From Candidatus Gastranaerophilales bacterium (GTDB lineage: Bacteria; Cyanobacteriota; Vampirovibrionia; Gastranaerophilales; Gastranaerophilaceae): a DNA stretch of 64,000 nt. A program made the translations under genes and the position numbers. Below are positions 9,201 to 31,300 of this stretch, piece by piece (positions within the stretch are counted from its first letter, which is position 1; each line of letters opens with the position of its first letter). The notes below the pieces were generated by a model. The model was not told where the DNA came from. It saw only the letters and a program-made list of their open reading frames with translations, and ran no database searches. The DNA is taken from NCBI GenBank assembly GCA_944325625.1, contig CALVAP010000002.1, forward strand, positions 1 through 64,000, written 5' to 3'.

Positions 9201-10637
9201 CTATTTATTTTTTAATTCCCATATTGTACCGTCTTTTGTATCTTTTAGTCCTACACCTGCTTTAGCGAGTGTGTTTCTTATTAAATCGGCAAGTTCCCAA
9301 TTTTTTTCCGCTCTTGCTTGATTTCTTACTTTTAAAATCTTTTCAAGAACAGCTTTTGGGGTTTCTATGCCTGTTAAAAAGTCAAACTCGGAAAGTATGG
9401 GTGAAAGTTTTTCAAATAGAATATTTTCATCAATTTCTATGTTAGAAAAATCAAAACCTAAAACCTCAGAAAGTTTTAACATCGTTGTAATTGCTTTTTT
9501 AGCACTTATTTTGTCTGCTGTATCCTTTGCTTTGTTAGCTGTATTTGCCAGGTCAAATAATACTGCAAGTGCTTTTGCAGTGTTCAAATCATCGTCCATT
9601 GCTGCCTTGAAGTCTTCAACGGCTTTAATATCGACATCTGATTCTTTTTCATCTGCAACAAACGGCAAAACGTTATTAACGGCGTTTTGCAACCTTTGTG
9701 CGCCGGCTTGTGCCGAATTCAGTGCTTCGTCAGAGAATTCTACAGGCATGCGGTAGTGGTTTGTCAATATAAACAGCCTTATTGTATTCGAGTTATATTT
9801 TGCCAGTATGTCATCTATTGTTAAAAAATTACCAAGTGACTTTGACATTTTTTCTTTGTTTATGGTCACAAAACCATTGTGCATCCAGTATTTTGAGAAC
9901 TCACAATCATTTGCACATTCGGATTGTGCAATTTCGTTTTCATGGTGCGGAAACATTAAATCGGCTCCGCCTGCATGAATATCGATATTTTTGCTAAGGT
10001 GTTTTCTAGCCATAGCAGAGCACTCAATATGCCAACCGGGCCGTCCTATTCCCCATGGGCTTTTGTATCCATGCTTTTCGTCTTTTTTCCATAATGCAAA
10101 ATCAAGTACATCTTCCTTTTTTGACGAAGCTTCTACCCTTGCACCTGCAACCAAGTCGTCTATCGGTTGTTTGCTCAGGTTGCCGTATTTTGGGAATTTT
10201 TTTACTCGAAAATATACATCACCATCGGTTTCATATGCATATCCTTTTTCTATTAGGGTTTTTACAATTGAAATCATTTCTCCCAGTGTTTTTGTTGCAA
10301 AAGGCTCTATATCAGGTTTTAGAATATTTAATTTTTTCATTGAATCTGAAAAAATATCATAATATTTTTTTGCAACCTCATCAGGTGAAATTCCTTCTTT
10401 CTCAGAACGAGCAAGAATTTTGTCATCTACATCTGTTACGTTTCTACAGTATTTTACGTCGTAACCTAAAAATTTCAGGTATCTGTATAATATATCCCAA
10501 GTTGTATAACAACGGGCATGTCCCAGGTGTGGTTTATCATATACAGTTGGACCGCATACATACATTTTTACTTCATTTTCCTTTAGCGGTTTAAACTCTT
10601 CTACTTTATCAGAGTAGGTATTGTATATTTTTAGCAT
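9201..10637 (-). CDS. cysS: Cysteinyl-tRNA synthetase
   Basis: A class I synthetase charging tRNA-Cys. The HIGH motif appears as HLGH at 37-40 and the KMSKS loop is exact at 263-267. Zinc ligands C28, C206, H231 and E235 can be placed by comparison with the E. coli enzyme. The 478-residue length is typical. Its start lies inside the end of the upstream Clp-N gene (7-bp overlap), so the two are translationally coupled, an unusual partner for cysS. Confidence 0.97.
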   Translation of the reverse strand: MLKIYNTYSDKVEEFKPLKENEVKMYVCGPTVYDKPHLGHARCYTTWDILYRYLKFLGYDVKYCRNVTDVDDKILARSEKEGISPDEVAKKYYDIFSDSMKKLNILKPDIEPFATKTLGEMISIVKTLIEKGYAYETDGDVYFRVKKFPKYGNLSKQPIDDLVAGARVEASSKKEDVLDFALWKKDEKHGYKSPWGIGRPGWHIECSAMARKHLSKNIDIHAGGADLMFPHHENEIAQSECANDCEFSKYWMHNGFVTINKEKMSKSLGNFLTIDDILAKYNSNTIRLFILTNHYRMPVEFSDEALNSAQAGAQRLQNAVNNVLPFVADEKESDVDIKAVEDFKAAMDDDLNTAKALAVLFDLANTANKAKDTADKISAKKAITTMLKLSEVLGFDFSNIEIDENILFEKLSPILSEFDFLTGIETPKAVLEKILKVRNQARAEKNWELADLIRNTLAKAGVGLKDTKDGTIWELKNK

Positions 10638-11995
10638 TCGTTTAGCTCCTTTAAAATGCCTTGAGTAATTTCAACAGTGTCAGCACCTAAGTTTTCAAGT
10701 ACTTTCATTGCAAGTGAGGTCGGTTCTTGGGTTATTGCCCATAAAAGATTTGCTGATGAAATCATTCTGAGATTGTGTTTTTTAGCTTTTTTGGCAGCTC
10801 GCTCAAGTATTAATTTTGCTCGTTTGCTGAAAATAATCTCGGTGTCAGAATATTTATCCCCATATCCGATAAGTTTTTCAACTTCATTTCTTGCATCTTT
10901 GATATTTATTCCCAATTTTGATAAAACGACAGCACCAACACCGGCACTTTGGGCTATAATTCCAAGAAGAATTAATTCGGAACCTACTATATTTCTGCCC
11001 AATCTGCGTGCTTCATTTTTAGCTAGTCTAAGAATTGTCAATGTTTCCGGCATCTGTTTTTCTATTGGTTTAATTATTTGGTGCGCCAGATTGTCGTCGT
11101 TTACTTTTAGGCTTTTAAAAATATTATACGCAATACCTGATTTGGCCTTTATTACACCAAGAATTATGTGTTCGGGCTTTACTGTGGCTTCTCCGAGTTC
11201 TTTGGCGGTTTCTATTGCCAGCAGGATGGTTTTAAAAGCGTTTGGAGTGAATATAATTTGCTTTTCTTCGTATTCGGCTTTTCTCGATGTCATTTCTTTT
11301 AGTTTAGTTCCAAAACTATCGAGGTTAATCCCGTGTTCTGACATTATTTTGGAGATATCTGATGTAGAATCTTCCAGTATAGATTGCACAATCTGTTCTG
11401 TACCAAGAATTTCGTAATTTGAGGCAGTTAGTTTTGCAACCGCATGCTCAAAAATGCTTTTAGATTCCGGTTCTTCAATTATTGATAGTACTTTTGAATA
11501 TTCTTCGCTAACATATTTTTTTGGAAGAATGCCTTCAGGATGTTCATTTTTTCTCGATTTTTTTTCGAAAAGCCTACCCAAAACGGTTTTTGCCTTATCT
11601 GTATCAAAACCCAAGTCTTCCAATAGATATGTTATGGGGGATTTTCTGTCTTCTATCAATGACAAAAAAAGATGCTCAGTCGTTATTGATGAGCTTTTGG
11701 CTTTTCTCGCCAAATCAAAACTCCCTTTCAGAACATTTTTTGCGGAATCAGAAAACCCAATAAAATCACTTTTTTTAATAGTTTTTTTAGTTTCAAGATT
11801 TTTTATTGCACTATCAGCAACAGCTTCCAGCGAAATTTTTGACATAGTAAGCAGTTTTGTAGAAAAACAAGACTTTTGTGCTGTAAAAGCGATTAGAATA
11901 TGTTCGGGATAAATCTTTTCAAAATCATTTTCTTCTGCTATTTTTTTTGCGCCAGTTACAATTTGCAGCGCTTTTTCCGTAAATTTTTCGAACAA
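10631..11995 (-). CDS. Protein of three tandem Clp N-terminal domains without an ATPase
   Basis: The 454 residues read as six Clp repeat motifs, that is three ClpA/C N-domains: about 1-145, 150-310 and 315-454. The third is most ClpC-like, with ARRLGRNIVGSELILLGII around 330. No Walker A or B motif exists, so there is no AAA+ motor. In ClpC the N-domain docks adaptors and substrates; this protein could act as an adaptor, a substrate sponge or a Clp competitor, which is inference. The start is a TTG with GAGGTG seven bases upstream. It overlaps cysS by 7 bp. Confidence 0.8.
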   Translation of the reverse strand: MFEKFTEKALQIVTGAKKIAEENDFEKIYPEHILIAFTAQKSCFSTKLLTMSKISLEAVADSAIKNLETKKTIKKSDFIGFSDSAKNVLKGSFDLARKAKSSSITTEHLFLSLIEDRKSPITYLLEDLGFDTDKAKTVLGRLFEKKSRKNEHPEGILPKKYVSEEYSKVLSIIEEPESKSIFEHAVAKLTASNYEILGTEQIVQSILEDSTSDISKIMSEHGINLDSFGTKLKEMTSRKAEYEEKQIIFTPNAFKTILLAIETAKELGEATVKPEHIILGVIKAKSGIAYNIFKSLKVNDDNLAHQIIKPIEKQMPETLTILRLAKNEARRLGRNIVGSELILLGIIAQSAGVGAVVLSKLGINIKDARNEVEKLIGYGDKYSDTEIIFSKRAKLILERAAKKAKKHNLRMISSANLLWAITQEPTSLAMKVLENLGADTVEITQGILKELNEC

Positions 11996-12085
11996 AATAA
12001 CACCTCGAGCCGACTTGTATGGAAATAATTCTACATCAAATATTCTTCTCTGTCATTAACATGTTTTCTAAGCTAATACTGTTTA

Positions 12086-12142: not shown

Positions 12143-12805
12143 ATGCATTCAGTATTAAAAAAGGGTGAAAGAAAAAAGAAAGCTTTTTCAATAGCAGAAG
12201 CAATGGTCGTACTTTTGATAACCAGTCTCGCACTTGCTGCGGCCAGTCCACTGATTTCAAAATCGTTGAAAAGTGATGGTATGGATAATTTAAAATGGAA
12301 AGAATTCGAAGAAAAACTTAATCAATTGGAAAATAATTTGACCGAAAAAAATACAGAGTTAACAGAAAAAATTGAAGAGTTAAAAGAAGAACTTGATGCT
12401 TTTTCGGCAATTCCATCAGGTTCTATTGTTTATTTTGATCTTGATAGTTGTCCATCAGGTTGGACGGCTTTAACATCAAAGTATCCTAAGGCCTCAAATG
12501 CTTTTATTCGAAACACGGGTGGTTCTGGTAGAACAAGGGGTTCTTTTCAACAAAATGCGGCACCTAATATAACCGGAGTTGGTCCAAGGTTTTCTGCTGA
12601 AATTTTCAACGGAAGCGGGCTTTCCGGTGCGGTATATTTTTCTAATACTAACACGGGTTCCAGAGGAGAAAATGGTGATGGTGGTTGGACCGGAACCAAG
12701 GGATGGAACTTTGATGCCTCTCGTTCTGCTTCAGCCTATGGGCGCGATGGTTCCAGCGAGATTAGACCTGATAATATTGCCTTTTTGGCTTGTCGAAAAA
12801 ACTAA
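12143..12805 (+). CDS. Prepilin-like protein with phage tail-collar-like C-terminal domain
   Basis: Residues 13-40 form a type IV prepilin leader: a lysine-rich stretch, then AFSIAE with Glu at position +5 of the mature protein, then a hydrophobic helix. Residues 48-88 are a Glu/Asn/Leu coiled coil. From about 92 the protein reads like the end of a tail fibre: PSGSIVYFDLDSCPSGW, then Gly/Ser-rich loops, ending RPDNIAFLACRKN. The product is probably processed by prepilin peptidase and displayed on a pilus or secretion pseudopilus with an adhesive head; the head function is inferred. It overlaps the convergent SDR gene by 4 bp. Confidence 0.75.
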   Translation: MHSVLKKGERKKKAFSIAEAMVVLLITSLALAAASPLISKSLKSDGMDNLKWKEFEEKLNQLENNLTEKNTELTEKIEELKEELDAFSAIPSGSIVYFDLDSCPSGWTALTSKYPKASNAFIRNTGGSGRTRGSFQQNAAPNITGVGPRFSAEIFNGSGLSGAVYFSNTNTGSRGENGDGGWTGTKGWNFDASRSASAYGRDGSSEIRPDNIAFLACRKN

Positions 12806-30979: not shown

Positions 30980-31300
30980 ATGGACAAAAAAGAACAACTG
31001 AAGATAATAGAGGAAATGCAACAGGTTGCAGCCCAGATGAGAGCAGATGACATAGAGGAGAATCCTGATTGTTTGAATGAATTTTTTACTTGTGCTGCCT
31101 GTGGACAATCTAAGGATTATGCGGGGTCTATTAAGTATAGCGAGTACCGTTTGTGTAATGACTGTGTTCTGCTTGCAGAAACAGGTTTTGCATTGGGAAA
31201 AATTAAAAACATACAAGAACTTATTGACAATATGGAAGATAGGCGACTTGAGGCAATGTGTGATTTTATAAAAACTGATGAAAAATCATTAAATAACTAG
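30980..31300 (+). CDS. Zinc-ribbon-like hypothetical protein, 106 aa
   Basis: Two CxxC knuckles, C38/C41 (CAAC) and C59/C62 (CNDC), are spaced as in a small zinc ribbon. They are flanked by acidic helices with no membrane segment. AAAGGGG gives a strong ribosome site. Function unknown; small zinc ribbons often mediate protein or nucleic-acid contacts. It lies 47 bp upstream of the TPR gene but that gene has its own -10. Confidence 0.65.
   Translation: MDKKEQLKIIEEMQQVAAQMRADDIEENPDCLNEFFTCAACGQSKDYAGSIKYSEYRLCNDCVLLAETGFALGKIKNIQELIDNMEDRRLEAMCDFIKTDEKSLNN

Follow-up and report, generated by a model that had tools for sequence, protein, structure and literature searches.

The window analysed here comprises the first 64,000 nucleotides of contig CALVAP010000002.1 (assembly GCA_944325625.1) from a Candidatus Gastranaerophilales genome, G000, which is 1.70 Mb long and 99.68% complete. 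The organism is a gut bacterium and a relative of the cyanobacteria. On its minus strand lies a gene for a protein with three ClpC-type N-domains in series, referred to below as D1, D2 and D3, see the following features.

9201..10637, minus strand: cysS, named from the first sequence reading, overlapping the 3' end of the triple gene
10631..11995, minus strand: the triple Clp N-domain gene, an open reading frame of 454 aa with a TTG start
10634..11053, minus strand: D3, residues 315-454, the most conserved domain and the nearest to ClpC
11009..11077, minus strand: conserved D2-D3 junction, residues 307-329 (model helices 300-313 and 317-331)
11054..11482, minus strand: D2, residues 172-314, the domain furthest diverged from ClpC
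11483..11560, minus strand: linker between D1 and D2, residues 146-171, with low model confidence at 145-150 and 158-163
11534..11542, minus strand: His-Pro-Glu in the D1-D2 linker, residues 152-154, each residue found in 98/98 homologues
11561..11995, minus strand: D1, residues 1-145, the fastest-evolving domain
12001..12006, minus strand: likely ribosome-binding site GAGGTG, seen in the sequence ahead of the TTG start

The stop codon of the triple gene occupies 10631-10633 and the ATG of cysS starts at 10637, i.e., the two genes overlap by 7 nt. A TTG start is found in 76 of 98 distinct homologues, and it may mean low expression. These 98 sequences, which also provide all column statistics below, are blastp matches with E<=1e-30, at least 420 aligned residues and a recognisable start motif; the rest were dropped. 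The divergent neighbour (12143-12805, plus strand) has, by eye, a type IV pilin-like N-terminus and a glycine-rich, tail-fibre-like C-terminus. Elsewhere in the window, a 106-aa protein with two Cys pairs (30980-31300, plus strand) precedes a TPR protein and matches no Pfam family over the cut-off.

In a Pfam search, the 454-aa protein matches Clp_N (E 1.1e-47, 160 bits). No AAA module was found, the two further rows being below their cut-offs, and no domain besides Clp_N was detected, with D1 beginning at residue 1. The number of Clp_N stretches in the window protein varies with the threshold: six at E<=10, four at E<=0.001 and five when the whole genome is scanned, the weakest being the first repeat of D2. 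A slower-evolving homologue, L088, has six stretches at E<=0.001. When each repeat of the window protein is aligned to the two repeats (R1 and R2) of the ClpC N-domain from the same genome, each of the six outscores all 300 shuffles and the order is R1-R2-R1-R2-R1-R2. For the first repeat of D2, R1 and R2 score equally in the window protein, and R1 leads in L088 and in a second homologue, L096. From this alternating order it follows that the tripled unit is the whole N-domain. Thus, the ClpC-type N-domain with its two Clp_N repeats is present three times, while the two AAA+ modules and the middle domain of ClpC ATPases are absent, and the real ClpC of the genome is located elsewhere. The first-pass annotation had described three ClpC-like N-domains in series without AAA+, and the Clp_N match, the six alternating repeats and the missing AAA match bear this out. 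Repeat detection, a check it had proposed, gives six repeats and not fewer than three domains.

Structure prediction, the other check proposed there, agrees. The AlphaFold2 model, based on an alignment of 29 chosen family members, has a mean pLDDT of 81.5 but a pTM of 0.56; therefore the domains are reliable and their relative placement less so. It contains 25 helices, eight in each domain and one in the linker, and Foldseek matches it best in the PDB to 5gui, the N-domain of Arabidopsis ClpC1, with a TM-score of 0.89 over the target. D2 abuts D3 without a free linker, via the conserved residues 307-329.

Two other origins and one other function were considered and rejected. A frameshifted ClpC, i.e., an ATPase lost by a local frameshift, does not explain the protein, since the same C-terminus recurs throughout the order before many unrelated downstream genes. 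A ClpB origin is rejected as well; D1-D3 group with ClpC in the tree, and the median identity to the ClpB of the same genome is only 21% for D1, 21% for D2 and 22% for D3. Finally, the window protein has no PADLOC match to an anti-phage system.

Counting G000, 36 of the 39 genomes of the order carry a full-length homologue; none was found in G004, G029 and G036. The first-pass annotation had called the triple array unusual and had suggested a survey of related genomes for the same domain count. The array is indeed unusual, and the relatives carry the same number of domains. The protein is absent from all 11 genomes of the sister order, where Clp_N occurs in every genome in frames that by length correspond to ClpC and ClpB; the only extra frames are one of 181 aa (G318) and a piece of 122 aa where a contig ends (G319). 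In an even draw of 292 genomes from the phylum, 129 have a match at E<=1e-30, one of them partial (G277). These are 128 of the 130 genomes from the same family plus the only genome listed from another family within the order. The other 161 genomes, five of them listed as sister order, have no match at this threshold (143 genomes without a match were not itemised). Among the best 80 matches in 84,980 named genomes, the triple protein is found in records named Gastranaerophilales, Melainabacteria, Cyanobacteria or plain bacterium, and in two records under discordant names, Fusobacterium sp. CAG:439 and Heliobacteriaceae. The matches that follow the triple proteins are ClpC, mostly from ordinary cyanobacteria.

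In a tree of 96 rows with ClpB set as root, D2 forms one clade (support 100) and D3 one clade (support 99), D1 is consistent with a single origin, and ClpC falls among D1-D3. The tree was made with a quick method from 25 chosen family members, and its 145 columns are few for 96 rows. Since all D2 copies in the order fall into one clade and all D3 copies into another, the sequences indicate a single and old triplication that predates the diversification of the order. The three domains have since diverged to different degrees: the identity to the ClpC N-domain of the same genome is 31% (D1), 23% (D2) and 40% (D3) in the window, with medians of 32%, 25% and 42%. Against the congeneric genome G001, dN/dS is 0.07 overall (D1 0.16, D2 0.04, D3 0.04), but with synonymous sites close to saturated, nothing beyond purifying selection as such can safely be concluded. 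In G004, one of the genomes without the triple protein, a single free N-domain of 143 aa (L089:2113-2544, minus strand) groups with a D1 (support 98), and no remnant of D2-D3 follows it.

The gene neighbourhood was read in 78 loci, among which at least five records are present twice (L066/L140, L068/L147, L071/L159, L099/L168 and L100/L167); L173 was dropped as it is not full. With these duplicates included, the next downstream gene is TilS in 53 loci, CysS in 2, another same-strand gene in 13 (e.g., U32 peptidase, NIF3, TatD and DapB) and an opposite-strand gene in 8, and two loci reach the contig end. The tilS cluster is a mix of housekeeping genes, and tilS is not next door in any of the 11 loci from other families of the order (L078-L083, L088 and L096-L099). 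The first-pass annotation had coupled the triple gene to cysS by overlap and co-translation. The 7-nt overlap exists; however, it is not a general feature, as cysS adjoins the triple gene only within the genus, in the window, G001 and G002. A functional operon with cysS is ruled out beyond the genus by the differing downstream genes.

Among the loci read, the triple gene shows no conserved link to clpC or clpP. One clp-related neighbour recurs, a free ClpX-type zinc-finger protein, which lies at most six genes from the triple gene in 40 of the 78 loci (at least five duplicates again included) and, counted from coordinates, within 5 kb in 13 of 39 genomes. Its frame of 89-122 aa is present in 38 of 39 genomes of the order (C4:50967-51068, minus strand, in G000) and in 0 of 11 genomes of the sister order. 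In a subclade of the order, the zinc-finger protein and the triple protein are in one gene cluster. Their proximity may reflect shared ancestry of one operon.

Positions for comparison come from work on ClpC. In the available excerpts of PMC12583610, T7, E32 and E106 of ClpC lie at two phospho-arginine pockets, R9 and K85 are resting-state anchors, and adaptors and substrates dock on the N-domain sites. The groove positions F2 and F80 are taken from the titles of PDB entries 3wdd and 3wde (F2Y and F80Y, cyclomarin). D1 starts like cyanobacterial-type ClpC, with M-F-E-[KR]-F-T-E-K-A, and eight of its residues at ligand or anchor positions are nearly fixed: F2 (78/98), F5, T6 (98/98), K8 (85/98), E31, F81 (98/98), K86 (82/98) and E107. 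This set, picked from the literature on ClpC, has a mean column entropy of 0.43 versus 2.02 for the rest of D1, and none of 10000 random sets was equally low; hydrophobic or Gly columns of D1 have a mean of 1.57. T6 and E31 may be fixed for folding rather than binding.

The other two domains behave differently in the same entropy test. In D2, 70 of 10000 random sets are as low, a moderate result; in D3 it is 1328 of 10000, i.e., no excess conservation of the site residues. By mean column entropy per repeat, D1 is the variable domain (1.86 and 1.88) and D3 the conserved one (0.99 and 1.13). Of the Thr7/Glu32/Glu106 phospho-arginine pocket, D1 keeps the equivalents except for a Ser in place of the second Thr. 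D2 has both Glu (94/98 and 91/98) and retains T250, P251, E275 and H276 in its second half; the K85 equivalent is missing and F254 stands instead. D3 retains E340 and K394. Its first Thr is missing, the column at residue 315 being Met in 79/98, and the second-pocket Glu (column 415) is present in 42/98 and is Ala415 in the window. The linker around the invariant His-Pro-Glu is variable and in part of low model confidence. The frozen site residues within the fastest domain, the invariant His-Pro-Glu and the conserved D2-D3 junction are new observations of this analysis.

The Clp machinery of G000 comprises ClpX, two ClpP, a ClpB-sized Clp_N frame and a ClpC that carries two AAA modules besides its two Clp_N repeats. 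This ClpC aligns through the middle domain; read from the alignment, the equivalents of E426, E435 and F436 are kept and D356 is Ser. Searches for ClpS, the usual adaptor of ClpC, gave no match in 21 genomes of the order, in 11 of the sister order or in a second draw of 21 genomes from the family, compared with matches in 29 of 38 genomes from outside the class. ClpS is missing more widely than the triple protein is present, and its absence is thus probably older, so the triple protein is not a simple replacement of ClpS. No McsB family arginine kinase was found in 21 genomes, a search in which the control genomes gave no match either. A review of the Clp systems in cyanobacteria and plastids (PMC7966870) lists ClpS and NblA as adaptors of cyanobacterial ClpC, and its excerpts on this subject mention no triple N-domain protein.

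ATPase-less Clp N-domain proteins are already known, and it is the form with three in series that is new. Such an array is not described in the portions of the literature covered on ClpC2 (PMC10030653), ClpC3 (PMC10864484) and ClpT (PMC4243950), and a library of open-licence papers, judged by title and opening of the abstract, yielded no relevant paper on Clp in Gastranaerophilales or on ClpC in Melainabacteria. Each domain of the window protein corresponds to a complete ClpC N-domain; however, ClpC itself has AAA+ modules and a middle domain, and the window protein has three N-domains serially instead. Mycobacterial ClpC2 and ClpC3 are, like the window protein, ATPase-less relatives of the ClpC N-domain that exist beside a full ClpC. 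According to excerpts of PMC10030653, ClpC2 consists of a dimerising domain followed by a single N-domain (residues 94-252) and acts as a repressor of its own gene, whereas the window protein has three N-domains and no other domain found, with D1 starting at residue 1. The plant proteins ClpT1 and ClpT2 and the double Clp-N motif proteins (4y0b and 4y0c) are also free Clp N-domains in a cyanobacterial-type Clp system, but each has one N-domain and resides in the plastid, while the window protein has three and belongs to a bacterial genome; its best match to 4y0b is weak (E 4.8e-6). The first-pass annotation had placed ClpT in cyanobacteria too, which is doubtful, as the parts of PMC4243950 consulted report ClpT1/2 only in plants. 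ClpS may be functionally comparable as an ATPase-less partner of ClpC and an adaptor, but it belongs to an unrelated family and has no match in G000.

We suggest, giving it a little less than an even chance, that the triple protein is a soluble accessory of ClpC-ClpP that would offer ClpC-type recognition sites in trans. The basis for this role is three N-domains without a motor, conservation across the order with D2 and D3 as one clade each, purifying selection, the frozen D1 sites, the invariant His-Pro-Glu, the closely joined D2-D3 pair, the presence of ClpC and ClpP in the genome, and the missing ClpS. Points against it are the lack of site conservation in D3, the missing K85 equivalent in D2, the choice of the D1 set from the literature, the lack of a conserved clpC or clpP neighbour, and a ClpS absence that is probably older than the protein. 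As the protein is kept by nearly all sampled relatives, it probably gathers or competes for what ClpC recognises. D1 would bind the class of ligand that binds the ClpC N-domain, which may be an adaptor, a segment of a substrate or part of ClpC itself, and D2-D3 could be a fixed scaffold or docking unit. The protein would then collect such ligands and either hand them to ClpC or withhold them. A collector, an adaptor and a decoy would all be compatible with such a role. The first-pass annotation had likewise suggested that the array could collect substrates, cap ClpP or compete with ClpC. There is a precedent for competition, in that ClpC2, itself a free N-domain protein, and ClpC1 compete for an N-domain ligand (excerpts of PMC10030653); for the triple protein, the retained site residues of D1 would be only a hint of it.

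The main rival is a repressor in trans, because the same residues hold ClpC in its resting state. Through these residues, the array would dock on the middle domains of ClpC or on its AAA1 and hold ClpC off. T7, R9 and K85 are the anchors of the resting state in S. aureus ClpC (excerpts of PMC12583610), their D1 equivalents T6, K8 and K86 have the high counts given above, and the genome's own ClpC keeps E426, E435 and F436. However, the K85 partner D356 is the Ser noted before, and since adaptors and substrates bind to the very residues that anchor ClpC, the pattern is not specific to repression; we regard this repressor as unlikely. A quite improbable alternative is a holdase or scaffold independent of ClpC, which merely reuses the fold. 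It would account for the lack of a conserved clp gene link other than the zinc finger and for the low identity of D2 to ClpC, but neither for the frozen ClpC-type residues of D1 nor for D3 having stayed so near to ClpC.

The chances are lower for a ClpT-like part of the protease, in which the array would bind the ClpP ring and control assembly or block the docking of the ATPase. ClpT1/2 lack an ATPase and are related to the N-terminus of ClpC; they bind the Clp core, where they seem to obstruct the chaperone sites (excerpts of PMC4243950), but the frozen D1 residues correspond to ligand sites of ClpC, and the same excerpts describe ClpT as plant-only. Least of all do we expect a sponge for peptide antibiotics directed at ClpC, like mycobacterial ClpC2. 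D1 does retain both groove phenylalanines, F2 and F81, known from the cyclomarin entries; yet its occurrence in almost the whole order suggests a permanent and not an occasional task, and the dimerising, DNA-binding part of ClpC2 (excerpts of PMC10030653) is without a counterpart here.

A wider version of the accessory role, which is speculative and rather unlikely, takes in the zinc finger. This order of gut bacteria, in whose sampled genomes ClpS is missing, would have released recognition heads from its Clp unfoldases as two free proteins, the triple N-domain receptor and the zinc finger, forming a detached sensing layer that would decide on degradation by ClpCP and ClpXP in trans. The wider interest lies in the ClpC N-domain, an antibiotic target that gates a major bacterial protease. 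If almost every member of one order carries three such domains without a motor, this would represent natural Clp control by a detached receptor and, in a lineage where no ClpS was found, would offer a ready test of N-domain sites uncoupled from the ATPase.

Three other unusual N-domain proteins were observed. In G035, a ClpC-type N-domain is fused to a CAP12/Pycsar-type TIR domain (L093:76-1014, plus strand; Pfam E 2.2e-25), and its PADLOC matches, PDC-S35 and PycTIR, make it a defence-type effector with a Clp recognition domain. In G003, a 250-aa protein (L092:3837-4589, plus strand) has one ClpC-type N-domain followed, by eye, by membrane-helix-like stretches. Finally, a ClpC gene in JAGBXP010000001.1 (L175:1712-2900, plus strand) has three Clp_N repeats where two are usual; the additional copy is almost identical and looks like either a recent in-frame tandem duplication or an error of assembly.
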